Assembly (NCBI GenBank): GCA_029448655.1
Contig: JACCLO010000003.1
Span: forward strand, 1,302,001-1,366,000
From: Wolfiporia cocos
Lineage: Eukaryota; Basidiomycota; Agaricomycetes; Polyporales; Phaeolaceae
Reading direction: 5' to 3'
DNA: 64,000 nucleotides
Within the stretch, counting starts at the first letter, position 1. Each line of letters opens with the position of its first letter. This document shows, piece by piece, positions 6,825 to 60,809 of this stretch. The notes under the pieces were generated by a model. That model saw only the letters and a program-made list of their open reading frames with translations. It was not told the origin of the DNA and searched no databases. Both the position numbers and the translations under genes were made by a program.

Positions 6825-7135
6825 TCTGCTCTTATAATGGGAGCTCGCGTGCAGCTAGCGTGCAGCTAGCGTGTCGCTCGCATGGACGTTTGCCGCGTGG
6901 CGTCCATGGGCGTCATTCCTGCTCCCATTAGATAGGGCGCTTGCCACCCGGGGAGTTGGGCGATGGATTCCCACGCCCAGCGCCTGCAAGGCGCGCGTGC
7001 CGGTTGCAAAGGTGTTACAAGCGAAGCGACGACGAGGCCGAGCGTCAGCGAGGTGGAGGAGTGGCTGAGCGGGCAGATATAAGCAACAACTCCTAGAATA
7101 CAAAATTGTGGCGAAGCCACAGGTGATTGAGCTAG
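6825..7135 (+). mobile_element. Helitron-like unit, plus strand, array 0 unit a
   Basis: Non-autonomous Helitron-like unit of 311 bp. It starts TCTGCTCTTATAATGGGAGC after a host A at 6824, matching the 5' end TCTGAACTATAATGGGAGC of the short units in the large array. It ends with the hairpin GTGGC-GAA-GCCAC, then 11 nt, then CTAG at 7132-7135. The next base begins the TC of the following unit. It contains tandem AGCTAGCGTGC-type 10-11-mers near its 5' end and no minisatellite. Confidence 0.75.
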
Positions 7136-7621
7136 TCTAAATACTAAAGGGCCGTGGAAGAAAACCATGTGGTTCTCGCGTGGCAACTGTGCGTTCATTG
7201 GCCCGTAGGGCGCGCGCCACCATCCCCGTGCCATTTCCCACGCACGGCGCCTACAACACGTGCGGGGTTCAAATCCCTTCGACCGCATCCTCCCTGCGCT
7301 GTACCACGGGATTTTGCAGCTGTTGTAACGTAAATAGCCTGTAAGTACTGTAGATACCCACAAAGCTCAGGAGTTTCTGAGGCACCACATTTGTGGATGC
7401 AATGTTACAAGCGAAGCGATGACGACACCGAGCATCAGCGAGGTGGCTGAGCGGGCAGAGAACAAAGGACAGAAGAGGCAGGTGCAACAGGGTGATCACA
7501 CACCCTGGGGGTTGGGTGGACTCACTATGTCTCCATCCAATATGTTTTTCCCTTATTTTATTAGTTATCACACTTAAGTGACAATTGAGATTCGTGGCGA
7601 AGCCGCGGGTAATTAAACTCG
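7136..7621 (+). mobile_element. Helitron-like unit, plus strand, array 0 unit b
   Basis: 486-bp unit joined directly to the previous one. The 5' end TCTAAATACTAAAGGG matches that of the 39898-40181 unit. The 3' end is slightly degraded: hairpin GTGGCGAAGCCGC and terminal CTCG instead of CTAG, followed by host T at 7622. It carries an extra insert with a tRNA T-arm-like GGTTCAAATCC at 7266-7276 not present in other units. Confidence 0.65.
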
Positions 7622-18240: not shown

Positions 18241-19341
18241 GACCGACGCCCAGACACAAGAGGAACTGAGGAGGATACACTTGATTAAAACCAAGCTGAG
18301 GATCAGACTTGGTGGGTTTCTACTATATATACATGAGTCTGTGTGTACCTATGTGTCTCGCATACCTGTAATGGTTTAGCGGTGTCTGGGTAGGGGCCTA
18401 GGATCGATAGACTTCATTAGACCTTTGTCAAGGGTTTCTGTGAGTTGTAACATGTGTGATATGGCTGGGGATCTGCGATGTGTGGTAACCATGTGTATCT
18501 ACTGATACCTGAATTGTGATTGAGTTAAAGTTGTATGAATGCTTCCTGGAATGTATAGGTGGTTCTGATATTCTCAGGAATGCTTCTGTGAAGTATAAAC
18601 CAAATGAAAGAAGCAAACTTAGTTTCTGTGTGGCTTTTAACCAAATATATCTCTGGTAGATCAGGAGCTTGTTAAACCTTATGTTTAAATATCGCCTTGT
18701 GGTAGCCTTGTGGTGCTGGGATTATTAGAATGTTTCCTAGGGCTTCTGTGATGTTGTTAAGGGGTTTTTATTGAAAGGTCTTCTGGGTCTTTTGTAATAG
18801 TGGGATTTATTGGTTTATCTTTAATGCTACTGTGATTTGCAGTGTTATTGCTTTATGGGTTTTTGTTAGAGGTTCAGATAGAACTGGGTTGTTATTGGAT
18901 TGAACCATTTGAGATGTGGATTTAATTTATTATGGCTGGTTCTTGAAATCCTGACATGGCCCTGCTTGAGAGGCGGATCATCACTACAGTGGCGCAGCCC
19001 TCACACTCTAACTCAGCCGTTACCAATAGCAGTAATTCCTGCGCGCCTGCTCGAACGAAATGGGGACCTAATTGATTTGTCAGCTCGGCGCATTCACTTC
19101 CTCGTTGTTTCATTCGCATATTGGGAACGTCACCTGACTTAACCACAACAGCAACGTGGGAACGCAGAGCGGCTGGTTCTAGGAGCCTGGCTTGGCTCAC
19201 GCTTGGCTCACCTTACTTGGCTTGGCACGGCTAGGAGCCTGGCTTGGCTCACGCTTGGCTCACCTTACTTGGCTTGGCAGTCACACTGGCAGTGAAGTCA
19301 CGCATAGTAAATTGGGACCGAGGATATTACAGTAATTAATA
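18241..19341. other. AT-rich non-coding stretch
   Basis: No gene seen. It holds the direct duplication at 19179-19279 and ends with the host A before the large Helitron-like array. Confidence 0.5.
19179..19279. repeat. Direct duplication, 49 bp with 52-bp period
   Basis: A 49-bp unit beginning CTAGGAGCCTGGCTTGGCTC at 19179-19227 is repeated exactly at 19231-19279, separated by CGG. Confidence 0.9.
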
Positions 19342-19461
19342 CTAGCTTAATTACCTGTGGCTTTGCCACAATTTTGTACTTTAGGAGTTGTTGTTTATCT
19401 CTGCCCGCTCAGCCACTCCTCCACCTCGCTGACGCTCGGCCTCGTCGTCGCTTCGCTTGTA

Positions 19462-22400
19462 AGGTAGGGGACGCTAGGAACGGGCACCCTTATGTAATAC
19501 TGTCACGTGATACTTTCCCATGGCCAAATCTCGGTGTCCGACCAAAAATCGGGCACGAAGCAGGAGGGAATCTGAAGCAAATAGATGTATTATGTGCCAT
19601 ATTTACTGTGGAATTCAGCTTTCAGCTCCTGTGCTATCGATGCTGGAAGTACACGGTGCCCGTGGTACTTCCGATTGGCCCATGAGGCTTCTGCTCCATC
19701 CAACCCCTGTGAATATGCAGATATAAAGCGTGCTGCACGATTGGCATATCTACAACAGTCAGGGATTCAGCAAATTAATCCAAGTAGACTCAGTTTGGCA
19801 ACTCACCGGTGGATCTGAACAAGTGAGGGCTTTTCAAGGCAGGCTATTATGTTCTCTTCCATCTGCTTGAGGTCTGCAGTTCTTGGACTAATGCGATAGT
19901 GATATTTTGAAGCTCCCCAATATTGCTCAATAAAATTGAGCTCAGGATGGTACTTTGGATAGAAGTCGCAGATATGGCCACGGGACTCAATATACTCCTC
20001 AAGCTGTGACTTCTGATTTGTGAAATCATCCTGTGTGAAGAGTAGCCGGCGGCAGCAACAATCAGTGTGCTCAGGCTCACACTTGAAGCCTGAGCATTGA
20101 GCATTGAGATCCCTTGAAGGCCACAAGCCACGCTCCTGTATGATAATCTCCATACCCTTGAACCACCCAGGCATTTCTGGATGGTCATCGGGGAAATAGA
20201 AATCCTGTATCTCACCATTAGGTAGGCGGCCAGCTCGCATCTTGACACCATCCTGGGGGCACCATGTTGGAGATGGGAATTTTGGCATGTACCGGGCAGA
20301 AAGGGCATCGGGTGCACGTTTCTGGTGACTTGGAGCATTATCGAACATCCAAAGCCCAACAGCAAAGCCCTTTGTCTTCTCTTCGAAGATGTCGATCGCA
20401 TTCTCAACCTGCCGCAAAAGATCATTTGCATTGAAATTGCCATCACGATTCTTTCCAGCGTGAAAGATCACTCTAGCATCCCTAAGAAGCATATAAGTAC
20501 ATATTGAGCTTGGACATGCTCCAATTGAGACTTACTCGCCGTCATGAGTTAGCCGTCCCCATTCCGGAGATAGAAACTCTGAAACCATAATAGATGCTCC
20601 CTCTCCCTTCTTGACAGGTTTGGGACCCTCGGACGAGTGATGCCACTTGGTCTTGCGTCGATCATTGGCATAGAAAGTCGACTCGTCATGCGTGACAAGT
20701 ATAAGCCGAAAAGGGCGACCATTGGGTACTGGAAAGCCCTTGGGAATACAAAGTACATTCCCATCATTGTCGTAGGTCACCATACGCTTCTCATACTCCT
20801 TCCATCGCTCCACGAACTTGCATCGGTACTCCACAACGTCGGGCCGCTCATGACCATCAATGTACATTCCCTTCGCCATTCTGGAATACCGCCAATCAAG
20901 GCTGTGTAGCCATCGTCGAGCAGTGCGTACCGAAATCGTCGTTTTGCCGCTGAGCTTATCTTGCATTTCAGGGGTTGACACGAAATCCACAATATCTTGG
21001 GCACGAAAATATCCTCGTTTTGCAACCTCCATCAGGTGGGATTGGATAGCTTGTGAGAGGTCTTCGTCATCAAGAATGGAAGCACGGGGGCGCTGATAGC
21101 GGTGCAATGGGAATTTCCCAGAATCAAGGAACTTGTGGATCCACATCCGCAGCGTACGTGCATACTTGACACTGCGTCCGAACGATTTCGCAGCTAGGAC
21201 AGATGCTTCACGCCAGCGATATGACAAGTCCGGGTCAAGGTAGAGATTCAAGGTCCCCACCATGGCTGTAATCTGTGCACGAAATACGACATCAAGATCC
21301 TTGTCCTTCGACTTTGCCGTAAGCTTCATTAATGCCACCTGCAGTGTCGGAAAATCCTTATATGACATATTATTCAATTTGTGATCAGCTGCACCCTCCG
21401 GCTGCATGTCATGCAGATTCTGAAGAAGTTCATCGATACGGTGCGTTGCTGCAGGGATGTCCGCACAGTGAGGTGCGTTATCTTTTGAGTGATTCTCTCT
21501 ATCAGTGATCACTGGCATCATAGTCTCGGGCGGTGGCATAGTAGCCATAAATGCATTATCAATGGGGGCGGTGCAACATCTGGGCTCTCGTTCTCATTGT
21601 CGGTTGAAACTTCGTCACTCTGTGCAGGTGAGTCAGCAATTTTTCGTAATCAAGAACACTGACTGACCATTGTGCTTGGGCTATCATCCAGCTTCTGCGA
21701 TGATGAGCTGAAGAAATGTGCAATGCTTTGATAGCCTTGCTTCTCTAGCTCTCTCTGCCTGGCGGCATGTCGCCGCTTCGTCTGGACAGAATTGCATGTA
21801 TAATGTCTTGGGCGGTGGTTATCCTCTCTCTTTGCTTTCTCTCTGGCTAATGCAGCATTGTGTGCCTGTTGTAGGAGGGATGCGAAGCGACTGAGGGCTG
21901 CTTCAGGTTCGTGCTCTGATTCCTCCTCCGAATCCTCCTCGTTCATTTCTGAGCTTGATCCTTCTGTGTCCGTCGGTCCATGACCCCCTGGTGCAGACAA
22001 AACAGCTTCAATATGTATGGGCCCATCATCGTCGTCTTCTTCGGCCATCCCGGGTGGTATTACAGGTTCTCGAAGCAGTGCCGTGGGACCTTCTTGAAGT
22101 TGGCTTCCCAGGCTGGCAGTGTCATCAGCAAGGTTGGCGGTTGGACATGCTGTATTTAGACGAGATCTAGCTTGACGTAGGTTCGCTATGTGTGCAGAGT
22201 GCTTCGCTGAGTGTTTTCCCATTATAACGCAGCAAATACAGGCTACAATTTTCGTTGCTTTGACGCAGCGGCCAATCTCTGATTGTGGCGCCCGTCACGT
22301 GTAGCGTCGCTATCAGTCACTGATAAGGTCATGTGCAAGACAGATAACAGATAGATCTAGTCACGTGATGCTTATGTAAGCGGCCAAAATTCCTGGGGTG

Positions 22401-22655
22401 CCAGATGTATATTGCACCAAATCACTTGTACAGCATTAAAAATGATGTTAGATAGAAATTCATTGAATCGCTAATATCTCAAGCTGTCGTTGGTTTTGTC
22501 AAAAACGAGTCAATAGGAATGAAAGCAGACATACAGATGAACCTTTCCTATTGAATAGATGCTCGGAACTTGCATTTTCGATGTGGCAATTTGGAGCACC
22601 GTGAATGGTGGCGGATGGCTTACGTAAGGGTGCCCGTTCCTAGCGTCCCCTACCT
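19462..22655 (-). mobile_element. Tc1/mariner-type DNA transposon, 3194 bp
   Basis: Terminal inverted repeats begin AGGTAGGGGACGCTAGGAAC and match over about 36 bp with one or two mismatches. TA is duplicated at 19460-19461 and 22656-22657. The empty site, with one TA, is visible in sister Helitron-like units, for example near 27087. It encodes one spliced transposase with an apparently intact DDE triad, so it may be active. Confidence 0.92.
19803..22222 (-). CDS. DDE transposase of the Tc1/mariner-type element
   Basis: Minus-strand exons about 22222-21666, about 21560-20536 and 20481-19803. The last splice is certain in phase (DGE joined to DARVIFHAG). The first junction is not settled, because several acceptors around 21570-21625 give stops. 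The N-terminal ~190 residues are acidic and Ser-rich. A DNA-binding helix-turn-helix region follows (VKYARTLRMWIHKFLDSGKF, then TISVRTARRWLHSLDWRYSR and GMYIDGHERPDVVEYR). Catalytic residues: first Asp in LILVTHDESTFYAND, second in VGLWMFDNAPSHQ, and Glu in YHPELNFIEQYWG. Transposition by cut and paste at TA is inferred from the family and the observed duplication. It sits inside a Helitron-like unit, so it arrived later than the array. Confidence 0.88.
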
Positions 22656-22802
22656 TAACACCTTTGCAACCAGCATGCGCGCCTTGCAGGCGCTGGGCGT
22701 GGGAATCCACTGGCCAACTTCCCAGGTCGGTGGCGCGAGTGCCACACACGTGGAAAAGCACATGGCAGTTCCCACGCAATCCACGGCCCTTTAGTACTTA
22801 GA

Positions 22803-23995
22803 CTAGCTTAATTACCCGTGGCTTCGCCACAAACACATAGTTTAATCACTTCAATATCATATCCCAATCCGTGTGTGCCTATTTGAGATAACCGGGGGAA
22901 TTCAGACCATTCACACACAAAGCAAGGGTTTTTGAACTTACTTGTGGATTCCCCATCAATTTACCGTGGATTATCCATGGGTTACCCTCTTCTGTTCCTT
23001 GTCTCTGCCCACTTAGCCACTCCTCCACCTTGCTGATGCTCAGTCTTGTTGTCACTTCACTTGCAATAATGTGTAATGCCATATGTCAAAAAATACTGAA
23101 CATTCTTCAATATTTTGGCAGGCATTTACAGCACAGGCCATTTATGTTACAAAAATTCCCGTGGCAGGGCACAAATCCCCGTAGCATAGGACACAAATCC
23201 CCATGGTGCAGGGTACAAATCCCTGTGGTGCAGGGTATTTACATTACAAAAATCCCTGTGGCATGGGGCACAAATCCCCATGGTGTGCAGTACAAATCCC
23301 TGTGGCATGTGGTACAAATCCCCATGGTGTGGGGTATTTACATTACAAAAATCCCCATGGCACAGGGCACAAATCCCTGTGGCATGGTGCACAAATCCTT
23401 GTGGCACAGAGCACAAATCCCCGTGGCATGGGGCGCAAATCCCCATGGTGTGGGGTACAAATCCCTGTGGCACGGGGCACAAATCCCTGTGGTGTGGGGT
23501 ATTTACATTACAAAAAATCCCCATGATGTGGGGCACAAATCCCCGTGCCACGGGGCACAAATCCCCGTGGCATGGGCCACAAACCCCCGTGGCAAGGGCC
23601 ACAAATCCCCGTGGTGTGGGGCACGAATCCCCGTGGTGTGGGGCACGAATCTCCATGGTGTGGGGCATGAATCCCCGTGGTGTGGGGCACGAATCCCCGT
23701 GGCATGGGGCACGAATCCCCGTGGTGCGGGGCAGGAACAGCGTGCGCGCCTTGCAGGCGCCGGGCGTGGGAATCCACCGGCCAACTCCGCGGATGGCAAC
23801 AGGCGCCCTATCTAATGGGAGCAGGATTTGACGACGCGCATGGACGCCACGCGGCAAACGTGGCATCCATGTGCGCAAAACGTGCGCTGAACGTGCGCAA
23901 AACGCGAGCGACACGCTAGCTGCACGCGAGCGACACGCTAGCTGCACGCTAGCCGCACGCGAGCGCCTACGGCGCAAGCTCCCATTACTTATAGA
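22803..23995 (-). mobile_element. Helitron-like unit 2 (long)
   Basis: 1193 bp with minisatellite from about 23150 to 23735. The 3' stem has C opposite A at the outer pair, an intermediate between the two hairpin types. It is nearly identical to unit 25 (54764-55908). Confidence 0.8.
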
Positions 23996-24783
23996 CTAGC
24001 TTAATTACCTGTGGCTTCGCCACAAACGTTATGTCTTAGGAATATATTTTAGTCTCTGCCTGCTCAGCCACTCCTCCACCTCGCTGATGCTCGGTATCGT
24101 TGTCGCTTTGCTTGTAGAATCTGTAACTGGCACGCATGCCTTGCAGGCTCTGGGTGTGGGAATTCACCCCTGTGGCATTGGGGTGCAAATACCTGTGGCA
24201 CAGGGTACAGACCCCTGTGGTGTGGAGTATTTATATTACAAAATCCCCATGCCACAGGACACAAATCCCTGTGGCATGGGGCACGAATCCCCGTGGCATG
24301 GGGCACAAACCCCCATGGCATGGGCCAAAAATCCCCGTGGTGTAGGGCACGAATCCCCGTGGCACGGGGTACAAATCCCCGTGGTGTGGGGTATTTACAT
24401 TACAAAATCCCCATGCCACAGGACACAAATCCCTGTGGCATGGGCCACAAACCCCCATGGAATCGGCCACGAATCCCCGTGGTGTGGGGCACGAATCCCC
24501 GTGGCATGGGGCACGAATCCCTGTGGCATGGGGCACGAATCCCCGTGGCATGGGGCACGAATCCCTGTGGTGCGGGGCAGGAACAGCCCGCGCACCTTGC
24601 AGGCGCCGGGCGTGGGAATCCATCGGCCAACTCCGCGGACGGCAGGCGCCCTATCTAATGGGAGGAGGATCAACGACGCGCATGGACGCCACGCGGCAAA
24701 CGTGGCGTCCATGTGCGCAAAACGCGAGCGACACGCTAGCGGCACGCGAGCGCCTACGGCGCGAGCTCCCCTTACTTTATGGA
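23996..24783 (-). mobile_element. Helitron-like unit 3 (long)
   Basis: 788 bp, with minisatellite. Its flank beside the 3' hairpin contains ACGTTATGTCTTAGGAATAT, shared with units 6, 12, 16, 18, 20, 21 and 26 (one subfamily). Confidence 0.8.
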
Positions 24784-25940
24784 CTAGGTTAATTACCCGT
24801 GGCTTCGCCACGGTCACACCACTTTTACCACTTCAATATATTATTCCAATCCATGTGCGCCTATTTCAGATAATCAGGGGTTTTTTTAAGTTACCTGTGG
24901 ATCCCCTATGAATTTCATGTGCATTACCCATGGCTTCCCCAACTTCCCTCTTTTGTCTCTTGTCTCTGCCTGCTCAGCCACTTCTGACACAGAGCTGATC
25001 CTCGGTCTCATCATCGCTTTGCTTGTTATACTGTGTAATGTGGTGTCAAAATGTTCTTCATTTTTTTTGCAATCTTTTGGCAGGCATCTACAGCACAGGC
25101 CATTTATGTTACAAAGATCCCCGTGGCATGAGGCATAAATCCCCGTGGCACAAAGCACAGATCCCTGTGGCACGGGGCACAAATCTCCATGATACAGAGC
25201 ACAAATCCCTGTGGCATGGGGCACAAATCCCTATGGTGCAGGGTGCAAATCCCCGTGGTGCAGGGTATTTACATTACAAAAATCCCTGTGGCATGGGGCA
25301 CAAATCCCCATGGTGTGCAGTACAAATCCCTGTGGCATGTGGTACAAATCCCCGTGGTGTGGGGTATTTACATTGCAAAAATCCCTGTGGCACAGGGCAC
25401 AAATCCCTGTGGCATGGTGCACAAATCCCTGTGGCACAGAGCACAAATCCCCGTGGCATGGGGCGCAAATCCCCATGGTGTGGGGTACAAATCCCTGTGG
25501 CACGGGGCACAAATCCCCGTGGTGTGGGGTATTTACATTACAAAAACCCCCATGATGTGGGGCACAAATCCCCGTGGCACGGGGCACAAATCCCTGTGGC
25601 ACGGGGCACAAATCCCCGTGGCATGGGGCACAAATCCCCGTGGCAAGGGCCACAAACCCCCGTGGCAAGAGCCACAAATCCCCGTGGTGTGGGGCACGAA
25701 TCCCCGTGGTGTGGGGCACGAATCCCCGTGGCATGGGGCATGAATCCCCGTGGTGCGGGGCAGGAACAGCGCGCGCGCCTTGCAGGCGCTGGGCGTGGGA
25801 ATTCACCGGCGCCAGGCGCCCTATCTAATGGGAGCAGGATTGACGACGCGCATGGACGCCACGCGGTGAACGTGGACGCCAGGTGCGCAAAACGCGAGCG
25901 ACACGCGATGCCTCCCATGCGAGCCCCCATTACTTATAGA
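24784..25940 (-). mobile_element. Helitron-like unit 4 (long)
   Basis: 1157 bp. It has the second hairpin type: stem CCGTGGC/GCCACGG, 7 bp, next to CTAGG on the plus strand. Same subfamily as units 9, 10, 11, 13, 15 and 24. Confidence 0.8.
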
Positions 25941-26224
25941 CTAGCTTAATTACCTGTGGCTTCGCCACAATTTTGTATTTCTAGGAGTTATTATATATCT
26001 CTGCCCGCTCAGCCACTCCTCCACCTCGCTGACGCTCGGCCTCGTCGTCGCTTCGCTTGTAATACCTTTGCAACCGGCACGCGTGCCTTGCAGGCGTCGG
26101 CGCGCACTCGATGGGCGCCCTACAGGCGCCGCCACGCGGCAAACGTGCTCGCCATGTGCGATTCTCGTGTGCGACACGCTAGCGACACGCGACGGCTCCC
26201 ACGCGAGCTCCCATTACTTTTAGA
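25941..26224 (-). mobile_element. Helitron-like unit 5 (short)
   Basis: 284 bp, no minisatellite. Nearly identical to unit 14 (32734-33017). Confidence 0.8.
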
Positions 26225-26968
26225 CTAGCTTAATTACCTGTGGCTTCGCCACAAATGTTATGTCTTAGGAATATATTTTAGTCTCTGCCTGCTCAGCCAC
26301 TCCTCCACCTCGCTGATGCTCGGTATCGTTGTCGCTTTGCTTGTAGAATCTGTAACTGGCACGCATGCCTTGCAGGCTCTGGGTGTGGGAATTCACCCCT
26401 GTGGCATTGGGGTGCAAATACCTGTGGCACAGGGTACAGACCCCTGTGGTGTGGAGTATTTATATTACAAAATCCCCATGCCACAGGACGCAAATCCCTG
26501 TGGCATGGGGCACGAATCCCCGTGGCATGGGGCACAAACCCCCATGGCATGGGCCAAAAATCCCCATGGTGTAGGGCACGAATCCCCGTGGCACGGGGTA
26601 CAAATCCCCGTGGTGTGGAGTATTTACATTACAAAATCCCCATGCCACAGGACACAAATCCCTGTGGCATGGGCCACAAACCCCCATGGAATCAGCCACG
26701 AATCCCCGTGGTGTGGGGCACGAATCCCCGTGGCATGGGGCACGAATCCCTGTGGTGCGGGGCAGGAACAGCACGCGCACCTTGCAGGCGCCGGGCGTGG
26801 GAATCCATCGGCCAACTCCGCGGACGGCAGGCGCCCTATCTAATGGGAGGAGGATCAACGACGCGCATGGACGCCACGCGGCAAACGTGGCGTCCATGTG
26901 CGCAAAACGCGAGCGACACGCTAGCGGCACGCGAGCGCCTACGGCGCGAGCTCCCCTTACTTTATGGA
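26225..26968 (-). mobile_element. Helitron-like unit 6 (long)
   Basis: 744 bp. A close copy of unit 3 with fewer minisatellite monomers. Confidence 0.8.
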
Positions 26969-27287
26969 CTAGCTTAATTACCTGTGGCTTCGCCACAATT
27001 TTGTAATTAGAACTTGTATTGCTTATCTCTGCCCGCTCAGCCACTCCTCCACCTCGCTAACGCTCGGCCTCGTCGTCGCTTCGCTTGTAACACCTTTGCA
27101 ACCGGCACGCGCGCCTTGCAGGCGCCGGCGCGCACTCGACGGGCGCCCTACAGGCGCCGCCACGCGGCAAACGTGCTCGCCATGTGCGCAAAACGCGAGC
27201 GACACGCTAGCTGCACGCGAGCGACACGCTAGCTGCACGCTAGCTGCACATGAGCGCCTACGGCGCAAGCTCCCATTATAGTTCAGA
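26969..27287 (-). mobile_element. Helitron-like unit 7 (short)
   Basis: 319 bp, 5' end TCTGAACTATAATGGGAGC. Nearly identical to units 17, 19 and 27. Confidence 0.8.
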
Positions 27288-27569
27288 CTAGCTTAATTAC
27301 CTGTGGCTTCGCCACAATTTTACTTTAGGAGTTGTTGTTTATCTCTGCCCGCTCAGCCACTCCTCCACCTCGCTGACGCTCGGCCTCGTCGTCGCTTCGC
27401 TTGTAACACCTTTGCAACCGGCATGCGCCTTGCAGGCGCTGGGCGTGGGAATCCACTGGCCAACTTCCCGGGTCGGTGGCGCGAGCCCTATGGGACGACG
27501 GACAGCACGTGGCACACGTGGAAAAGCACATGGCAGTTCCCACGCAACGGTCGTCCCTTTATTATATGA
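27288..27569 (-). mobile_element. Helitron-like unit 8 (short)
   Basis: 282 bp, 5' end TCATATAATAAAGGGACGAC. Same subfamily as units 1, 22 and 23. Confidence 0.8.
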
Positions 27570-28872
27570 CTAGGTTAATTACCCGTGGCTTCGCCACGGT
27601 CACACCACTTTTACCACTTCAATATATTATTCCAATCCATGTGCGCCTATTTCAGATAATCAGGGGTTTTTTTAAGTTACCTGTGGATCCCCTATGAATT
27701 TCATGTGCATTACCCATGGCTTCCCCAACTTCCCTCTTTTGTCTCTTGTCTCTGCCTGCTCAGCCACTTCTGACACAGAGCTGATCCTCGGTCTCATCAT
27801 CGCTTTGCTTGTAATACTGTGTAATGTGGTGTCAAAATGTTCTTCATTTTTTTTGCAATCTTTTGGCAGGCATCTACAGCACAGGCCATTTATGTTACAA
27901 AAATCCCCGTGGCATGAGGCATAAATCCCCATGGCACAGGGCACAGATCCCTGTGGTGTGGGGCACAAATCCCTGTGGTGTGGGGTATTTACATTACAAA
28001 ATCCCCGTGGCACAGGACACAAATCCCCGTGGCACAGGACACAAATCCCCGTGGCACAGGACACAAATCCCCGTGGCACAGGGCACAAATCCCTGTGGCA
28101 TGGGGCACAAACCCCCATGGCATGGGCCAAAAATCCCTGTGGTGTAGGGCACGAATCCCTGTGGCACGGGGTACAAATCCCCGTGGTGTGGGGTATTTAC
28201 ATTACAAAATCCCCATGCCACAGGACACAAATCCCCGTGGCACAGGGTGCAAATCTCCATGGCACAGAGCACAAATCCCTGTGGCACGGGGCACAAATCC
28301 CTGTGGCATTGGGATACAAATCGCTGTGGCATGGGGTACAAATCCCCGTGCCACAGGACACAAATCCCCATGGCACGGGGCACAAATCTCCATGATACAG
28401 AGCACAAATCCCTGTGGCATGGGGCACAAATCCCCATGGCATTGGGGTGCAAATCCCTGTGGCATGGGGTACAAATCCCCGTGGTGTGGGGTATTTACAT
28501 TACAAAATCCCCATGCCACAGGACACAAATCCCTGTGGCATGGGCCACAAACCCCCATGGAATGGGACACGAATCCCCGTGGTGTGGGGCATGAATCCCC
28601 GTGGCATGGGGCACGAATCCCCGTGGCATGGGGCACGAATCCCCGTGGTGCGGGGCAGGAACAGCGCGCGCGCCTTGCAGGCGCCGGGCGTGGGAATCCA
28701 CCGGCCAACTCCGCGGATGGCAGGCGCCCTATCTAATGGGAGGAGGATCAACGACGCGCATGGACGCCACGCGGCAAACGTGGCGTCCATGTGCGCAAAA
28801 CGCGAGCGACACGCGAGCGACATGCTAGCGGCACGCGAGCGCCTACGGCGCGAGCTCCCCTTACTTTATGGA
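27570..28872 (-). mobile_element. Helitron-like unit 9 (long)
   Basis: 1303 bp, the longest uninterrupted unit, with the largest minisatellite (about 27900-28660) and the 7-bp hairpin type. Confidence 0.8.
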
Positions 28873-29972
28873 CTAGGTTAATTACCCGTGGCTTCGCCAC
28901 GGTCACACCGCTTTTTCCACTTCAATACAGTATCCCAATCCATGTGTGCCTATTTCAGATAATCGGGGTTTTTTGAAGTTACCTGTGCATCCCCCATGAA
29001 TTTCCTGTGCATTACCCATGGCTTCCCCAACTTCCCTCTTTTGTCTCTTGTCTCTGCCTGCTCAGCCACTTCTGACACCTCGCTGATCCTCGGTCTCATC
29101 GTCGCTTCGCTTGTAATACTGTGCAATGTGGTGTCAAAATGTTCTTCATTTTTTGCAATCTTTTGGCAGGCATCTACAGCACAGGCCATTTATGTTACAA
29201 AAATCCCTGTGGCAGGGCACAAATCCCCATAGCATGGGACACAAACCCCCATGGTGCAGGGTACAAATCCCCGTGGTGCAGGATATTTACATTACAAAAA
29301 TCCCTGTGGCATGGGGCACAAATCCCCATGGTGTGCAGTACAAATCCCTGTGGCATGCAGTACAAATCCCCGTGGTGTGGGGTATTTACATTACAAAAAT
29401 CCCCGTGGCACAGGGCACAAATCCCTGTGGCACAGAGCACAATTCCCCGTGGCATGGGGTGCAAATCCCCATGGTGTGGGGTACAAATCCCTGTGGCATG
29501 GGGCACAAATCCCCGTGGTGTGGGGTATTTACATTACAAAAATCCCCATGATGTGGGGCACAAATCCCCATGGCACGGGGCACAAATCCCTGTGGCATGG
29601 GCCACAAACCCCCGTGGCAAGGGCCACAAATCCCCGTGGTGTGGGGCACGAATCCCCGTGGTGTGGGGCACAAATCCCCGTGGCATGGGGCACGAATCCC
29701 CGTGGTGCGGGGCAGGAACAGCGCGCGCGCCTTGCAGGCGCCGGGCGTGGGAATCCACCGGCCAACTCCGCGGATGGCAGGCGCCCTATCTAATGGGAGC
29801 AGGATCAACAACGTGCATGGACGCCACGCGGCAAACGTGGCGTCCATGTGCGCAAAACGTGCGCTGAACGTGCGCAAAACGCGAGCGACACGCGAGCGAC
29901 ACGCTAGCTGCACGCTAGCTGCACGCTAGCGACACGTGAGCGCCTACGGCGCGAGCTCCCATTACTTTTAGA
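28873..29972 (-). mobile_element. Helitron-like unit 10 (long)
   Basis: 1100 bp, 7-bp hairpin type, minisatellite from about 29200 to 29710. Confidence 0.8.
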
Positions 29973-30913
29973 CTAGGTTAATTACCCGTGGCTTCGCCAC
30001 GGTCACACAGTTTTTTCCACTTCAATACAGTATCCCAATCCATGTGTGCCTATTTCAGATAATCGGGGTTTTTTGAAGTTACCTGTGCATCCCCCATCAA
30101 TTTCCTGTCCATTACCCATGGGTTCCCCAACTTCCCTCTTTTGTCTCTTGTCTCTGCCTGCTCAGCCACTTCTGACACAGAGCTGATCCTCGGTCTCATC
30201 GTCGCTTCCCTTGTAATACTGTGTAATGTGGTGTCAAAATGTTCTTCATTTTTGCAATCTTTTGGGAGGCATCTACAGCACAGGCCATTTATGTTACAAA
30301 AATCCCTGTGGCATGAGGCATAAATCCCCGTGGCACAGGGCACAAATACCTGTGGTGTGGGGTACAAATCCCCGTGCCACAGGACAGTGCCACAGGACAC
30401 AAATCCCCGTGGCACGGGGCACAAATCTCCATGGTACAGAGGACAAATCCCCGTGGCATGGGGCACTGGAATTGGGATGCAAATCCCTGTGGCATGGGGC
30501 ACAAATCCCTGTGGAATTGGGATGCAAATCCCTGTGGCACGGGGTACAAATCCCCGTGGGGTGGGGTATTTACATTACAAAATCCCCATGCCACAGGACA
30601 CAGATCCCTGTGGCATGGGCCACAGACCCCCATGGAATGGGCCACGAATCCCCGTGGTGTGGGGCACGAATCCCCGTGGTGCGGGGCAGGAACAGCGCGC
30701 GCGCCTTGCAGGCGCCGGGCGTGGGAATCCACCGGACAACTCCGCGGATGGCAAGCGCCCTATCTAATGGGAGGAGGATCAACGACGCGCATGGACGCCA
30801 CGCGGCAAACGTGGCGTCCATGTGCGCAAAACGCGAGCGACACGCGAGCGACACACTAGCTGCACGCTAGCGACACGCGAGCGCCTACGGCGCAAGCTCC
30901 CATTACTTATAGA
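29973..30913 (-). mobile_element. Helitron-like unit 11 (long)
   Basis: 941 bp. Near-identical in its hairpin-proximal half to units 15 and 24. Confidence 0.8.
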
Positions 30914-31710
30914 TAGCTTAATTACCTGTGGCTTCGCCACAAACGTTATGTCTTAAGAATATATTTTAGTCTCTGCCTGCTCAGCCACTCCTCCACCTCG
31001 CTGATGCTCGGTATCGTTGTCGCTTTGCTTGTAGAATCTGTAACTGGCACGCATGCCTTGCAGGCTCTGGGTGTGGGAATTCACCCCTGTGGCATTGGGG
31101 TGCAAATACCTGTGGCACAGGGTACAAACCCCTGTGGTGTGGAGTATTTATATTACAAAATCCCCATGCCACAGGACACAAATCCCTGTGGCATGGGGCA
31201 CGAATCCCCGTGGCATGGGGCACAAACTCCCATGGCATGGGCCAAAAATCCCCATGGTGTAGGGCATGAATCCCCGTGGCACGGGATGCAAATCCCCGTG
31301 GTGTGGGGTATTTACATTACAAAATCCCCATGCCACAGGACACAAATCCCTGTGGCATGGGCCACAAACCCCCATTGAATGGGCCACGAATCCCCATGGT
31401 GTGGGTACGAATCCCCGTGGTGTGGGGCACGAATCCCCGTGGCATGGGGCACGAATCCCCGTGGCATGGGGCACGAATCCCCGTGGTGCGGGGCAGGAAC
31501 AGCCCGCGCACCTTGCAGGCGCCGGGTGTGGGAATCCACCGGCCAACTCCGCGGATGGCAGGCGCCCTATCTAATGGGAGGAGGATCAACGACGCGCATG
31601 GACGCCACGCGGCAAACGTGGCGTCCATGTGCGCAAAACGCGAGCGACACGCTAGCTGCACGCTAGCGACACGCGAGCGCCTACGGCGCGAGCTCCCATT
31701 ATATTATGGA
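30914..31710 (-). mobile_element. Helitron-like unit 12 (long)
   Basis: 797 bp. The terminal CTAG has lost its C on the plus strand (AGA-TAG at 30911-30916), the only eroded junction inside the array. Confidence 0.78.
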
Positions 31711-32733
31711 CTAGGTTAATTACCCGTGGCTTCGCCACGATCACACCGCTTTTTCCACTTCAATATATTATTCCAATCCATGTGTGCCTATTTCAGATAA
31801 TCAGGAGTTTTTTTAAGTTACCTGTGGATCCCCTATGAATTTCATGTGCATTACCCATGGCTTCCCCAACTTCCCTCTTTTGTCTCTTGTCTCTGCCTGC
31901 TCAGCCACTTCTGACACCTCGCTGATCCTCGGTCTCATCATCGCTTTGCTTGTAATACTGTGTAATGTGGTGTCAAAATGTTCTTCATTTTTTTTGCAAT
32001 CTTTTGGCAGGCATCTACAGCACAGGCCATTTATGTTACAAAGATCCCCGTGGCATGAGGCATAAATCCCCGTGGCACAAAGCACAAATCCCTGTGGCAT
32101 GGGGCACAAATCTCCATGATACAGAGCACAAATCCCTGTGGCATGGGGTACAAATCCCCGTGGTGTGGGGTATTTACATTACAAAATCCCCGTGGCTCAG
32201 GACACAAATCCCCATGGCACAGGGCACAAATCCCCGTGGCACGGGGCACAAATCCCCGTGGCACGGGGCACAAATCTCCATGATACAGAGCACAAATCCC
32301 TGTGGCATGGGGCACAAATCCCCATGGCATTGGGGTGCAAATACCTGTGGCATGGGGTACAAATCCCCGTGGGGTGGGGTATTTACATTACAAAATCCCC
32401 ATGCCACAGGACACAAATCCCTGTGGCATGGGCCACAAACCCACATGGAATGGGCCACGAATCCCCGTGGTGTGGGAACGAATCCCCGTGGTGTGGGGTA
32501 TGAATCCCCGTGGCACGAATCCCCGTGGTGCGGGGTAGGAACAGCGCGCAAAACGCGAGCTAGCAGCGGGCCTTGCAGGCGCTGGGCGTGGGAATTCACC
32601 GGCGCCAGGCGCCCTAACTAATGGGAGCAGGATTGACGACGCGCATGGACGCCACGCGGCGAACGTGGACGCCAGGTGCGCAAAACGCGAGCGACACGCG
32701 ACGCCTCCCACGCGAGCCCCCATTACTTATAGA
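31711..32733 (-). mobile_element. Helitron-like unit 13 (long)
   Basis: 1023 bp, 7-bp hairpin type, with minisatellite. Confidence 0.8.
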
Positions 32734-33017
32734 CTAGCTTAATTACCTGTGGCTTCGCCACAATTTTGTATTTCTAGGAGTTATTATATATCTCTGCCCG
32801 CTCAGCCACTCCTCCACCTCGCTGACGCTCGGCCTCGTCGTCGCTTCGCTTGTAATACCTTTGCAACCGGCACGCGCGCCTTGCAGGCGCCGGCGCGCAC
32901 TCGATGGGCGCCCTACAGGCACCGCCACGCGGCAAACGTGCTCGCCATGTGCGATTCTCGTGCGCGACACGCTAGCGACACGCGACGGCTCCCACGCGAG
33001 CTCCCATTACTTTTAGA
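32734..33017 (-). mobile_element. Helitron-like unit 14 (short)
   Basis: 284 bp, near-twin of unit 5. Confidence 0.8.
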
Positions 33018-34161
33018 CTAGGTTAATTACCCGTGGCTTCGCCACGGTCACACAGTTTTTTCCACTTCAATACAGTATCCCAATCCATGTGTGCCTATTT
33101 CAGATAATCGGGGTTTTTTGAAGTTACCTGTGCATCCCCCATCAATTTCCTGTCCATTACCCATGGGTTCCCCAACTTCCCTCTTTTGTCTCTTGTCTCT
33201 GCCTGCTCAGCCACTTCTGACACAGAGCTGATCCTCGGTCTCATCGTCGCTTCCCTTGTAATACTGTGTAATGTGGTGTCAAAATGTTCTTCATTTTTTG
33301 CAATCTTTTGGGAGGCATCTACAGCACAGGCCATTTATGTTACAAAAATCCCTGTGGCATGAGGCATAAATCCCCGTGGCACAGGGCACAAATACCTGTG
33401 GTGTGGGGTACAAATCCCCGTGGTGTGGGGTATTTACATTACAAAATCCCCGTGGCACAGGACACAAATCCCCGTGGCACAGGGCACAAATCTCCATGGC
33501 ACAGAGCACAAATCCCCGTGGCATGGGGCACAAATCCCTGTGGCATTGGGATGCAAATCCCTGTGGCATGGGGCACAAATCCCCATGGCACAGGACACAC
33601 AAATCCCTGTGGCATGGGCCACAAATCCCCATGATGTAGGGTATTTACATTACAAAAATCCCCGTGGCACAGGGCACAAATCCCCGTGGCATGGGGCACA
33701 AACCCCTGTGGCACAGGACACACATCCCCATGGCATGGGGCACAAATCCCTGTGGAATTGGGATGCAAATCCCTGTGGCACGGGGTACAAATCCCCGTGG
33801 GGTGGGGTATTTACATTACAAAATCCCCGTGCCACAGGACACAAATCCCTGTGGCATGGGCCACAAACCCCCATGGAATGGGCCACGAATCCCCATGGTG
33901 TGGGAACGAATCCCCGTGGTATGGGGTATGAATCCCCGTGGCACGAATCCCCGTGGTGCGGGGCAGGAACAGCGCGCAAAACGCGAGCTAGCAGCGCGCT
34001 TTGCAGGCGCTGGGCATGGGAATTCACCGGCGCCAGGCGCCCTATCTAATGGGAGCAGGATTGACGACGCGCATGGACGCCACGCGGCGAACGTGGACGC
34101 CAGGTGCGCAAAACGCGAGCGACACGCGACGCCTCCCACGCGAGCCCCCATTACTTATAGA
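33018..34161 (-). mobile_element. Helitron-like unit 15 (long)
   Basis: 1144 bp, 7-bp hairpin type, with minisatellite. Hairpin-proximal half near-identical to units 11 and 24. Confidence 0.8.
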
Positions 34162-34556
34162 CTAGCTTAATTACCTGTGGCTTCGCCACAAACGTTATGT
34201 CTTAGGAATATATTTTAGTCTCTGCCTGCTCAGCCACTCCTCCACCTCGCTGATGCTTGGTATCGTTGTTGCTTTGCTTGTAGAATCTGTAACTGGCACG
34301 CATGCCTTGCAGGCTCTGGGTGTGGGAATTCACCCCTGTGGCATTGGGGTGCAAATACCTGTGGCACAGGGTACAGACCCCTGTGGTGTGGAATATTTAT
34401 ATTACAAAATCCCCATGCCACAGGACGCAAATCCCTGTGGCATGGGGCACGAATCCCCGTGGCATGGGGCACAAACCCCCATGGCATGGGCCAAAAATCC
34501 CTGTGGTGTAGGGCACGAATCCCCGTGGCACGGGGTACAAATCCCCGTGGTGTGGG

Positions 34557-35045
34557 TGTCACAGATTTTGTGGCATGTTTTAATGTATTACCCCTCCCTG
34601 GCTCGAACCCAGGACTTCACGTTCTAGTAGTCACATGACTGGTGCCCGGTAGTGTAGTGGTATATAGCGTACTCGTCCGCCAGGACATACGGTCACATGA
34701 TAAGTAGGTCACATGGTATATACTGGGGCACATGATAGATAGCGCACGGCCCATGCCTTTAGGGCAGTACTTACATAGTAGCGCGTTGTCTCCCCATGTA
34801 TATAAACCTACTCGCTGAGGTCTTACTACCTCAGTTCGATTATCATCGGCATTGGGGCGAGTCCCTCAGTTCTACTCTGAACCTCTGCGTGCTAGACTGG
34901 TGGTCGACATAACTACTTGGTTACTGTCTACCTTGGGTCATCTATCAACACCCATCCAGTCGCCCTTCAAGACGTTAGGTCTTAGCCTTAGACGTTAGGT
35001 TATAGGCGGGGCGTTAGTATCGTACGTCACAGTAAAACTGTGTCA
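34557..35045 (+). repeat. Left LTR
   Basis: 489 bp, TG..CA ends, identical to 35833-36321. Contains TATATAAAC near 34797, a likely promoter TATA box, followed by a putative R region. It also has tRNA-like motifs (see findings). Confidence 0.9.
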
Positions 35046-35832
35046 TAATAATCGAACTACTTTACCCACCCCCCTTGCGCTTGATCATTCGCGCTTGGGG
35101 CCTGGGGTTTCCCACTCTGTAGGACAGCGACGCGGCGGGGGCACCTCCTTGAAGAGGAGGTCGGCATGAACTCGCCAGCCCCCCATTACAAGCGTTGCTA
35201 TGGCGACTGCCAGCACGACTCGCCCGGAGCCTCCTGTCAAGGAGCACGGTCGAAGCGACGTCGGCGACAGGTACGCCCTCCTACTGAGGAGTGGAAGACA
35301 GAAGCCCGCCCTCGCTGTTGAGCGATAGCAGGACAACCTCGTGGTACGTCCATCCGGCGTACGTCCTGGGCGGCAGGACCCCCTTTATGACCAGTGGGTA
35401 TGCGAAGGGCTGCAAAGCCTAACCCCACACCGACACGGTCAGTCCATCACGGACGACGAACGACATTCATTCGACATAACCAACAACCAACATCCGTATC
35501 CCCCAGAGCGGGCCATTCTCAAGTAAGTTACTACACGACTACATTAGCCAACGACGTGGCGGACCACACGACAGGCGACATACAGACCTAGGTGCCGTCT
35601 CTGTGGCCGGCGGTGGGTGGAATCATGCACGACAGGCGATATACAGACCTAGGCACCACTCCTGTGCTGACCGGTAGGCGGAGCATGCCAAGTCAGCGGC
35701 GACGTGTATGTATAGGGGCGTGGTGACCCCCAGTAGACCTTACAGGATATAGTTCAAAGCGTACAGGATTGCCGACAGGCAGGGATGGAAGTTAGTCCTT
35801 CAACGAGGACGTTGAATATGAAGCGGAGGTAA
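35046..35832 (+). other. Internal region of the LTR element, non-coding
   Basis: 787 bp. Short frames only. A primer-binding site could not be matched to a specific tRNA by eye. Ends with a polypurine tract at about 35821-35832. Confidence 0.7.
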
Positions 35833-36321
35833 TGTCACAGATTTTGTGGCATGTTTTAATGTATTACCCCTCCCTGGCTCGAACCCAGGACTTCACGTTC
35901 TAGTAGTCACATGACTGGTGCCCGGTAGTGTAGTGGTATATAGCGTACTCGTCCGCCAGGACATACGGTCACATGATAAGTAGGTCACATGGTATATACT
36001 GGGGCACATGATAGATAGCGCACGGCCCATGCCTTTAGGGCAGTACTTACATAGTAGCGCGTTGTCTCCCCATGTATATAAACCTACTCGCTGAGGTCTT
36101 ACTACCTCAGTTCGATTATCATCGGCATTGGGGCGAGTCCCTCAGTTCTACTCTGAACCTCTGCGTGCTAGACTGGTGGTCGACATAACTACTTGGTTAC
36201 TGTCTACCTTGGGTCATCTATCAACACCCATCCAGTCGCCCTTCAAGACGTTAGGTCTTAGCCTTAGACGTTAGGTTATAGGCGGGGCGTTAGTATCGTA
36301 CGTCACAGTAAAACTGTGTCA
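35833..36321 (+). repeat. Right LTR
   Basis: 489 bp, identical to the left LTR, which implies recent insertion. Confidence 0.9.
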
Positions 36322-36729
36322 GTGGGGTATTTACATTACAAAATCCCCATGCCACAGGACACAAATCCCTGTGGCATGGGCCACAAACCCCCATGGAACG
36401 GCCACGAATCCCCGTGGTGTGGGGCACGAATCCCCGTGGCATGGGGCACAAATCCCTGTGGCATGGGGCACGAATCCCCGTGGCATGGGGCACGAATCCC
36501 TGTGGTGCGGGGCAGGAACAGCGCGCGCACCTTGCAGGCGCCGGGTGTGGGAATCCATCGGCCAACTCCGCGGACGGCAGGCGCCCTATCTAATGGGAGG
36601 AGGATCAACGACGCGCATGGACGCCACGCGGCAAACGTGGCGTCCATGTGCGCAAAACGCGAGCGACACGCGAGCGACACGCTAGCGGCACGCGAGCGCC
36701 TACGGCGCGAGCTCCCCTTACTTTATGGA

Positions 36730-37059
36730 CTAGCTTAATTACCTGTGGCTTCGCCACAATTTTGTAATTAGAACTTGTATTGCTTATCTCTGCCCGCTCA
36801 GCCACTCCTCCACCTCGCTAACGCTCGGCCTCGTCGTCGCTTCGCTTGTAACACCTTTGCAACCGGCACGCGCGCCTTGCAGGCGCCGGCGCGCACTCGA
36901 CGGGCGCCCTACAGGCGCCGCCACGCGGCAAACGTGCTCGCCATGTGCGCAAAACGCGAGCGACACGCGAGCGACACGCTAGCTGCACGCGAGCGACACG
37001 CTAGCTGCACGCTAGCTGCACGCGAGCGCCTACGGCGCGAGCTCCCATTATAGTTCAGA
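36730..37059 (-). mobile_element. Helitron-like unit 17 (short)
   Basis: 330 bp, twin of units 19 and 27. Confidence 0.8.
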
Positions 37060-38011
37060 CTAGCTTAATTACCTGTGGCTTCGCCACAAATGTTATGTCT
37101 TAGGAATATATTTTAGTCTCTGCCTGCTCAGCCACTCCTCCACCTCGCTGATGCTTGGTATCGTTGTTGCTTTGCTTGTAGAATCTGTAACTGGCACGCA
37201 TGCCTTGCAGGCTCTGGGTGTGGGAATTCACCCCTGTGGCATTGGGGTGCAAATACCTGTGGCACAGGGTACAGACCCCTGTGGTGTGGAGTATTTAGAT
37301 TACAAAATCCCCATGCCACAGGACACAAATCCCCGTGGCATGGGGCACAAACCCCCATGGCATGGGCCAAAAATCCCCGTGGTGTAGGGCACGAATCCCC
37401 ATGGCACGGGGTACAAATCCCCGTGGTGTGGAGTATTTACATTACAAAATCCCCATGCCACAGGACACAAATCCCTGTGGCATGGGGCACGAATCCCCGT
37501 GGCATGGGGCACAAACCCCCATGGCATGGGCCAAAAATCCCTGTGGTGTAGGGCACGAATCCCCGTGGCACGGGGTACAAATCCCCGTGGTGTGGGGTAT
37601 TTACATTACAAAATCCCCATGCCACAGGACACAAATCCCTGTGGCATGGGCCACAAACCCCCATGGAATGTGCCACGAATCCCCGTGGTGTGGGGCACGA
37701 ATCCCCGTGGCATGGGGCACGAATCCCTGTGGCATGGGGCACGAATCCCCGTGGCATGGGGCACGAATCCCTGTGGTGCGGGGCAGGAACAGCGCGCGCA
37801 CCTTGCAGGCGCCGGGCGTGGGAATCCATCGGCCAACTCCGCGGACGGCAGGCGCCCTATCTAATGGGAGGAGGATCAACGACGCGCATGGACGCCACGC
37901 GGCAAACGTGCTCGCCATGTGCGCAAAACGCGAGCGACACGCGAGCGACACGCTAGCTGCACGCTAGCGACACGTGAGCGCCTACGGCGCGAGCTCCCAT
38001 TATATTATGGA
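37060..38011 (-). mobile_element. Helitron-like unit 18 (long)
   Basis: 952 bp. Contains an internal duplication of a minisatellite block plus its AT-rich island (37320-37440 versus 37450-37600), which lengthens it relative to unit 20. Confidence 0.8.
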
Positions 38012-38340
38012 CTAGCTTAATTACCTGTGGCTTCGCCACAATTTTGTACTTTAGGAGTGGTTGCTTATCTCTGCCCGCTCAGCCACTCCTCCACCTCGCT
38101 GACGCTCGGCCTCGTCGTCGCTTCGCTTGTAACACCTTTGCAACCGGCACGCGCGCCTTGCAGGCGCCGGCGCGCACTCGACGGGCGCCCTACAGGCGCC
38201 GCCACGCGGCAAACGTGCTCGCCATGTGCGCAAAACGCGAGCGACACGCGAGCGACACGCTAGCTGCACGCGAGCGACACGCTAGCTGCACGCTAGCTGC
38301 ACGCGAGCGCCTACGGCGCGAGCTCCCATTATAGTTCAGA
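38012..38340 (-). mobile_element. Helitron-like unit 19 (short)
   Basis: 329 bp, twin of unit 17. Confidence 0.8.
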
Positions 38341-39149
38341 CTAGCTTAATTACCTGTGGCTTCGCCACAAACGTTATGTCTTAGGAATATATTTTAGTCT
38401 CTGCCTGCTCAGCCACTCCTCCACCTCGCTGATGCTCGGTATCGTTGTCGCTTTGCTTGTAAAATCTGTAACTGGCACGCATGCCTTGCAGGCTCTGGGT
38501 GTGGGAATTCACCCCTGTGGCATTGGGGTGCAAATACCTGTGGCACAGGGTACAGACCCCTGTGGTGTGGAGTATTTATATTACAAAATCCCCATGCCAC
38601 AGGACACAAATCCCTGTGGCATGGGGCACGAATCCCCGTGGCATGGGGCACAAACCCCCATGGCATGGGCCAAAAATCCCCATGGTGTAGGGCACGAATC
38701 CCCGTGGCACGGGGTACAAATCCCCGTGGTGTGGGGTATTTACATTACAAAATCCCCATGCCACAGGACACAAATCCCTGTGGCATGGGCCACAAACCCC
38801 CATGGAATCGGCCACGAATCCCCGTGGTGTGGGGCACGAATCCCCGTGGCATGGGGCACGAATCCCTGTGGCATGGGGCACGAATCCCCGTGGCATGGGG
38901 CACGAATCCCTGTGGTGCGGGGCAGGAACAGCGCGCGCACCTTGCAGGCGCCGGGCGTGGGAATCCATCGGCCAACTCCGCGGACGGCAGGCGCCCTATC
39001 TAATGGGAGGAGGATCAACGACGCGCATGGACGCCACGCGGCAAACGTGCTCGCCATGTGCGCAAAACGCGAGCGACACGCGAGCGACACGCTAGCTGCA
39101 CGCTAGCGACACGTGAGCGCCTACGGCGCGAGCTCCCATTATATTTGGA
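38341..39149 (-). mobile_element. Helitron-like unit 20 (long)
   Basis: 809 bp, close to units 3 and 26. Confidence 0.8.
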
Positions 39150-39897
39150 CTAGCTTAATTACCTGTGGCTTCGCCACAAACGTTATGTCTTAGGAATATA
39201 TTTTAGTCTCTGCCTGCTCAGCCACTCCTCCACCTCGCTGATGCTCGGTATCGTTGTCGCTTTGCTTGTAGAATCTGTAACTGGCACGCATGCCTTGCAG
39301 GCTCTGGGTGTGGGAATTCACCCCTGTGGCATTGGGGTGCAAATACCTGTGGCACAGGGTACAGACCCCTGTGGTGTGGAGTATTTATATTACAAAATCC
39401 CCATGCCACAGGACACAAATCCCCGTGGCATGGGGCACAAACCCCTATGGCATGGGCCAAAAATCCCCGTGGTGTAGGGCACAAATCCCCGTGGTACGGG
39501 GTACAAATCCCCGTGGTGTGGGGTATTTACATTACAAAATCCCCATGCCACAGGACACAAATCCCTGTGGCATGGGCCACAAACCCCCATGGAATCGGCC
39601 ACAAATCCCCGTGGTGTGGGGCACGAATCCCCATGGCATGGGGCACGAATCCCCGTGGCATGGGGCACGAATCCCCGTGGTGCGGGGCAGGAACAGCGCG
39701 CAAAACGCGAGCTAGCAGCGCGCGCGCCTTGCAGGCGCTGGGCGTGGGAATTCACCGGCGCCAGGCGCCCTATCTAATGGGAGCAGGAATGACGCCCATG
39801 GACGCCACGCGGCAAACGTGGCGTCCACGCTAGCTGCACGCTAGCTGCACGCTAGCGACACGCGACGGCTCCCACGCGAGCTCCCATTACTCTTAGA
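39150..39897 (-). mobile_element. Helitron-like unit 21 (long)
   Basis: 748 bp, with a shortened minisatellite and an altered 5' third. Confidence 0.8.
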
Positions 39898-40181
39898 CTA
39901 GCTTAATTACCTGTGGCTTCGCCACAATTTTGTACTTTAGGAGTTGTTTATCTCTGCCCGCTCAGCCACTCCTCCACCTCGCTGACGCTCGGCCTCGTCG
40001 TCGCTTCGCTTGTAACACCTTTGCAACCGGCATGCGCGCCTTGCAGGCGCTGGGCGTGGGAATCCACTGGCCAACTTCCCGGGTCGGTGGCGCGAGCCCT
40101 ATGGGACGACGGACAGCACGTGGCACACGTGGAAAAGCACATGGCAGTTCCCACGCAATCCACGGCCCTTTAGTACTTAGA
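39898..40181 (-). mobile_element. Helitron-like unit 22 (short, 5' end of array)
   Basis: 284 bp. The 5' end TCTAAGTACTAAAGGG is preceded on the minus strand by host A (plus 40182 T). It lies 123 bp before the start codon of the intact FunK1 gene. Confidence 0.82.
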
Positions 40182-53434: not shown

Positions 53435-53704
53435 CTAGCTTAATTACCTGTGGCTTCGCCACAATTTTGTACTTTAGGAGTTGTTGTTTATCTCTGCCCG
53501 CTCAGCCACTCCTCCACCTCGCTGACGCTCGGCCTCGTCGTCGCTTCAACCGGCATGCGCGCCTTGCAGGCGCTGGGCGTGGGAATCCACTGGCCAACTT
53601 CCCGGGTCGGTGGCGCGAGCCCTATGGGACGACGGACAGCACGTGGCACACGTGGAAAAGCACATGGCAGTTCCCACGCAATCCACGGCCCTTTAGTACT
53701 TAGA
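53435..53704 (-). mobile_element. Helitron-like unit 23 (short)
   Basis: 270 bp, like unit 22 but lacking about 14 bp (the TCGCTTGTAACACC region). Confidence 0.8.
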
Positions 53705-60762: not shown

Positions 60763-60809
60763 CTTGCGCTTGCGCATTTGTCATCCGTCTTTCACTCCAC
60801 TCTACTACA

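Follow-up and report, generated by a model that had tools for sequence, protein, structure and literature searches.

The window analysed here is a stretch of 64,000 nucleotides from the basidiomycete Wolfiporia cocos (contig JACCLO010000003.1, positions 1,302,001 to 1,366,000), and between positions 19342 and 40181 its minus strand carries an array of 22 head-to-tail units of one Helitron family (array A), with the 5' edge at 40181 and the 3' edge at 19342. A first-pass annotation, made from the letters of the window, had described 22 non-autonomous Helitron-like units on one strand at this place, and the count and orientation are borne out. A search for the 3' end of the family (hairpin, 11 nt and CTAG; at most three mismatches, both strands) gave 30 matches in the window against 0.18 expected in shuffled sequences, and 22 of the 30 are the 3' ends of array A, all on the minus strand, from 19342 to 39925. 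Unit length ranges from 282 to 3,461 bp. Every one of them begins with TC, as had been claimed, when the join between the units u11 and u12 is read as GCTA|TC, and 21 end in CTAG, the remaining one in CTA. The joins described earlier as CTAG|TC with no spacer are exactly so at 20 of 21 places; at u11|u12, between positions 30914 and 30913, the G is lost. Likewise the stem GTGGC/GCCAC sits 11 nt before CTAG in all 22 units, but the loop GAA attributed to all is AAA in u22, the 3'-most unit, whose stem is intact. Folding of the 3' hairpin gave -4.6 and -5.8 kcal/mol (z -2.4 and -3.0), and another hairpin, GCGCC-GTA-GGCGC, is read from the sequences near the 5' end of many units, one of which was folded. 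Hairpins at the two ends, together with asymmetric terminal inverted repeats, mark the Helitron2/Helentron type. The array is bounded by host A and host T as stated before: an A at 40182 stands beside the 5' TC edge (A|TC; CTGGGAA|TCTAAG at 40182/40181), and a T at 19341 beside the 3' CTAG edge (CTAG|TATTAAT at 19342/19341).

Read from the 5' edge along the minus strand, the units are u1 (39898–40181, 284 bp), u2 (39150–39897, 748 bp), u3 (38341–39149, 809 bp), u4 (38012–38340, 329 bp), u5 (37060–38011, 952 bp), u6 (36730–37059, 330 bp), u7 (34162–36729, 2,568 bp), u8 (33018–34161, 1,144 bp), u9 (32734–33017, 284 bp), u10 (31711–32733, 1,023 bp), u11 (30914–31710, 797 bp, with the 3' end GCTA), u12 (29973–30913, 941 bp), u13 (28873–29972, 1,100 bp), u14 (27570–28872, 1,303 bp), u15 (27288–27569, 282 bp), u16 (26969–27287, 319 bp), u17 (26225–26968, 744 bp), u18 (25941–26224, 284 bp), u19 (24784–25940, 1,157 bp), u20 (23996–24783, 788 bp), u21 (22803–23995, 1,193 bp) and u22 (19342–22802, 3,461 bp). 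The last of these holds a nested element at 19460–22657 (no strand assigned), whose inverted ends are exact over 33 bp; of its several frames, the one at 20532–21548 gave no Pfam match at E 0.001. Within its repeat region u7 is interrupted by approximately 1.77 kb of unrelated DNA. The same family forms a second array on the minus strand of the window (array B, 53435–57026), with five units (330, 788, 1145, 1059 and 270 bp), A|TC at 57026 and a T after 53435. A family piece on the plus strand (7108–7621) consists of a CTAG 3' end (7108–7135) joined to a unit (7136–7621) that ends in CTCG and belongs to the founder class discussed below. In arrays A and B the middle of most long units is filled by a degenerate 22-bp repeat (AAATCCCCGTGGCATGGGGCAC and variants) of varying copy number.

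The right flank of array A lies upstream of a fungal kinase frame (PF17667) and has two paralogues on contig C10, one close (L048, 93%) and one short (L049, 82% over 72 query bases). In both paralogues left-flank and right-flank sequence join with the array absent, and the 20.8 kb thus occupies one site. Comparison with them, made for array A and with an alignment that is imperfect beside the site, shows no target-site duplication; both paralogues read G where the array A locus reads A, again within the imperfect alignment near the junction. The left flank (18300–18956) is an interspersed repeat, found at 39 other places with 81–92% identity over most of its length (40 candidates scored of 173).

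A profile search with PF14214 in the 64.4-Mb assembly (76 contigs) gave 34 matches, none at the place of array A. The description of the units as non-autonomous therefore holds for array A, whereas a sister array on contig C1 holds an autonomous element. This is a complete RepHel element of 6,820 bp (L050:1249–8068) with TCTAAAAG at its 5' end and the hairpin and CTAG at its 3' end, and both joins to its neighbours read CTAG|TC; a RepHel gene with the same 3' end, for which the first-pass annotation had proposed to look elsewhere in the genome, is thus present. Its uninterrupted frame of 1,757 amino acids matches Helitron_like_N (PF14214) and PIF1 (PF05970), with HVH at 810 and YIHKY at 946, and a strict Walker A pattern had no match in this protein. 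For 16 of the 34 profile matches a family 5' end, picked by hand, lies 2.9–4.8 kb upstream on the same strand, two of the 16 being pieces of one gene and another 3' end intervening for C1:4711880. The ends, the A|T site, the insert-free paralogues and the RepHel with the same ends together support the earlier identification of these units as Helitrons, with features of the canonical (Helitron1) type.

The exact 3' end is present in 413 copies in the whole genome and is followed by T in 411 and by something else in two. TC follows 341 of the 413 ends and T plus another base follows 70; because part of these TC must belong to the host, we place the share of copies that directly precede another copy lower, at an estimated three quarters. 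In front of the TCYAWAADTAAKGGGRGCT class of 5' ends there is A in 67 copies, including a few joins without G (e.g., u12 of the window) or starts 3–5 bp behind another copy, and another base in 118 matches, with G in all 100 matches listed. A second 5'-end pattern, searched with A, C or G in front (T outside the search), gave 169 matches, of which the 100 listed show A or G only, and the same search with the TCTAAGTACT class gave 61, with A in front of 29 and G in front of 32. The outcome that the first-pass annotation had named as refuting, genomic copies usually lacking the A|T flanks, thus did not arise. A related end, CTCG, has 66 matches (searched with a sixth letter after it other than T), and T follows all of them. 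On contig C1 one array of the family reaches at least 24 units. Copies are also found near but off an edge, with a spacer of 5 bp at C3_2232 and of 3–4 bp on C12 (two places), C29 (two places, same spacer) and C13 (by coordinate subtraction). The regions C12:2774549–2779800 and C29:19600–24851 share three 5' starts and two spacers, arranged as mirror images, and the one on C29 may be a duplicate of that on C12.

For comparison among arrays, 106 units were parsed at 14 loci, partly hand-picked for being long or for holding the fused dimer described below; outside the 106 stand four scanned loci (the piece at 7108, L001, L002 and L007) as well as L005 and L006, which overlap L004 and L007 and were left unscanned. 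The nearest relative was sought for 101 of the 106 units, the other five being without a comparable relative. This relative belongs to the unit's own array in 7.4% of cases, where shuffled labels give 11.7%, and stands directly next to the unit in 2.0%. Own-array relatives are thus no commoner than chance, which argues against local duplication or one concatemer, and, going by their sequences, the units seem to have been drawn from a genome-wide pool.

The order of units within arrays was examined in nine pooled arrays of at least five units, shorter loci being dropped. Mutations in the terminal 28-mer rise toward the 3' edge (p=1e-4), also without the C1 array (p=0.006) and without founder-class units (p=0.0023). 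Class-adjusted CpG decay rises in the same direction in 81 non-founder units (p=5e-5; 0.0018 without C1), a test from which founders and one degenerate start (C1big_23) were left out. The founder class occupies the 3'-most unit at nine of the ten loci at which the 3' edge was read, versus three of 59 inner units (Fisher p=3.7e-8); u22 of array A, too, is of this class. The distances of the 5' and 3' 120 bp taken together gave a weaker result (p=0.019; 0.10 without C1). With no class correction, the CpG content of the ends has a strong gradient along the C1 array (rho -0.78, p=6e-6) and none along array A (rho -0.02, p=0.94), and CpG of the whole unit gave p=0.12 in each of these two arrays. 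The nested element lies in the 3'-most u22, but the inner u7 is interrupted too.

Array A was, very probably, built up layer by layer from separate Helitron insertions at its 5' (A|TC) edge, with the oldest unit at the 3' edge. Its ends and joins, its single site, the closest units lying in other arrays and the pooled wear toward the 3' edge carry this reading. Helitrons are described as inserting between A and T (PMC4289320, PMC13286980). A founder copy would land in a host A|T, and its 5' edge, A|TC, is itself an A|T site. Later copies, made by RepHel elements of the family elsewhere, would insert at the outermost A|TC; each insertion would restore an outermost A|TC and bury a CTAG|TC join, which reads G|T and would be a target no more. 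Since the A|TC is renewed on the outside while the buried join is G|T, stacks formed in this way would be free of spacers, head-to-tail and growing toward 5'. Repeated insertion at an existing Helitron end, one of two origins proposed in the first-pass annotation, is accordingly the best fit, and wear and founder position narrow that end to the 5' edge. An insertion at the 3' edge was discounted, since CTAG|T offers G|T instead of A|T and the most worn pooled units lie there.

Several observations weigh against such stacking or loosen its support. The loci were partly hand-picked, the founder class was defined post hoc, after the data had been seen, and one of its ten loci (L003) has just one copy; TC opens the 3' flank of C2_701, C7_168 and L008, which might be an unrecognised unit. 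In array A itself u1 and u15 have founder-class 5' ends although u1 is the outermost unit and u15 is internal. The trend of terminal mutations is gone when founders and C1 are both removed (p=0.31). For the 3' 120 bp the distance is without a trend (p=0.20), and for the 5' 120 bp the trend (p=0.009) is lost without C1 (p=0.16). For array A taken by itself the age signal is weak, with p=0.12 for CpG, p=0.04 for terminal mutations, which rest on one unit, and p=0.0016 for the distance of the 5' end. A unit-like start follows only about seven of the 66 CTCG ends, and that so few of these copies precede another unit needs either an order in time or some other preference. Finally, one copy in the C1 array is nested within a unit in the opposite orientation.

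RepHel may actively seek resident 5' ends, perhaps because this is the end that it binds and nicks on a donor. With moderate confidence we favour self-targeted transposition, in which RepHel together with its copy would recognise the 5' end of a resident copy and insert at the A|T which is nicked on the donor; the arrays would then be one-way records of arrival, and the loss of the G at a join would yield a composite transposon. If this is true, about three quarters of surviving insertions fell on approximately 100 edges among about 4 million AT sites, a preference of some 10,000-fold, as a rough estimate with the number of AT sites extrapolated from the window. Stacking could also be real without active targeting if insertions elsewhere were purged and those at old copies persisted. 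Selection against insertions near genes is common knowledge and speaks for such retention. Purging would, however, spare the 1,359 AT sites inside array A, where no further 3' end of the family was seen on either strand (at most three mismatches), as against 21 joins at edges; we therefore regard retention alone as an unlikely substitute for the targeting step.

Bypass of termination, the other origin proposed earlier as read-through of rolling-circle transfer, would produce many units in one event, with RepHel overrunning the 3' end or circling repeatedly, and a CTAG|TC join would then equal a circle junction. This route was taken at least once. The sequence GCTA|TC followed by TGAACTA occurs at 14 places in the genome, and the dimer it marks therefore has at least 14 copies. 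Eight of the 14 were compared and are 97.85–100% identical over aligned columns; four of the eight start at a host A, and the 5' flanks of these four show no similarity at E 1e-3. Two of the four lie on C12, 1.8 Mb from each other, and do not differ over 1,138 bp. Since the deletion at the join was carried along with the two units, the pair moved as one. The simplest cause would be that the inner terminator stopped working when the G was lost. The search was blind to partners with T as the ninth base (e.g., u11|u12 and C2_1665 u3|u4), so that one partner at all 14 places is no statement about all joins without G. Such joins with other partners are in fact present at u11|u12 of array A and at u3|u4 of C2_1665, with a third, degenerate one at C1big u22, and the G was therefore lost more than once.

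Two adjacent identical 284-bp units in L004 also suit bypass or a concatemer, as do the pairs u3–u4 and u5–u6, which are 98.4% identical; u3 pairs with u4 as in the fused dimer, and in both pairs CTAG is intact. On the other hand, neighbours generally differ in class and length and are hardly ever nearest relatives (the 2.0% given above), and units are layered by class and wear. A concatemer as the source of the arrays is thus very unlikely, and the arrays taken together speak for re-insertion at the 5' edge as the main route, with read-through as a side route that yields composites. Of the earlier proposal of read-through, this side route is what stands. Alternatively, arrays formed in any manner could have been shuffled afterwards by recombination or gene conversion, leaving relatives elsewhere, and units in different arrays are indeed identical (e.g., C12_508_4 and C2_1665_5, 952 bp). 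Shuffling would nevertheless wipe out the founder position and the gradient of wear, and the dimer has four unrelated host flanks, which makes it highly improbable. Local tandem duplication by unequal crossing-over, as in a satellite, would explain head-to-tail order in one orientation, yet with likeness within arrays no greater than between them and with identical joins at many loci it is the least credible of all. Satellite-like duplication, a single concatemer and inter-array shuffling are therefore rejected as the main route.

Apart from the family, the window has two adjoining long frames on the minus strand at 44471–50337 (1,309 and 646 amino acids), by eye a candidate non-long-terminal-repeat retrotransposon, and GC skew climbs to 0.32–0.44 between 44001 and 50000. 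Frames at 60735–63789 on the plus strand are, by eye, a candidate DNA methyltransferase.

HELPO1 and HELPO2 of Pleurotus ostreatus, likewise a basidiomycete, share AT insertion, the TC 5' end, a CTRR-type 3' end, the hairpin and RepHel; the word "tandem" is absent from the main text of that paper (PMC4289320), while here about three quarters of copies are estimated to be in tandem. Tandem or adjacent Helitrons are reported in bat, silkworm and maize, with bypass of termination given as the reading (PMC4067079), and in bat and plants (PMC5876387). In the fungus Metarhizium acridum a triple Helitron was described for which two insertions at the 5' end and rolling-circle replication were both offered (PMC5148889). 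These tandems are head-to-tail or adjacent as in W. cocos, but they were chiefly ascribed to bypass or left open, whereas insertion at the 5' edge is favoured here, and the triple is one undecided locus, compared with hundreds of joins at which direction and origin were tested. The centromeric Helitron arrays of plants (Xiong et al., 2016, via PMC12628747) are likewise long, but their copies are truncated, combining many 5' ends with a single 3' end, and are ascribed to rolling-circle amplification; array A differs in its complete units, each with both ends. In Drosophila, transposable elements of several kinds form dimers through insertion-site preference (McGurk and Barbash, via PMC12628747), which resembles tandem formation here, where stacks reach at least 24 Helitron copies. 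In the literature compared, with few subscription papers, we found neither a family in which tandem copies make up such a share nor layering by age nor a marked composite. The scale called unusual in the first-pass annotation is so against that literature but not within this genome, where tandem copies are the rule. The idea of 5'-edge insertion is, as far as these sources go, already in print for a triple, and what appears new is the scale, the layering and the marked dimer.

The origin of tandem Helitrons has been left open between bypass of termination and re-insertion (PMC5148889, PMC4067079). For this question the genome of W. cocos offers hundreds of joins, an uninterrupted RepHel frame and a natural marker in the lost G, and it provides testable predictions on how Helitrons choose their target and on what the final base of CTAG does. 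Its arrays are loci that may show in what order subfamilies arrived, and they suggest how a transposon may pile up on sites that it already occupies and thereby perhaps leave genes untouched.

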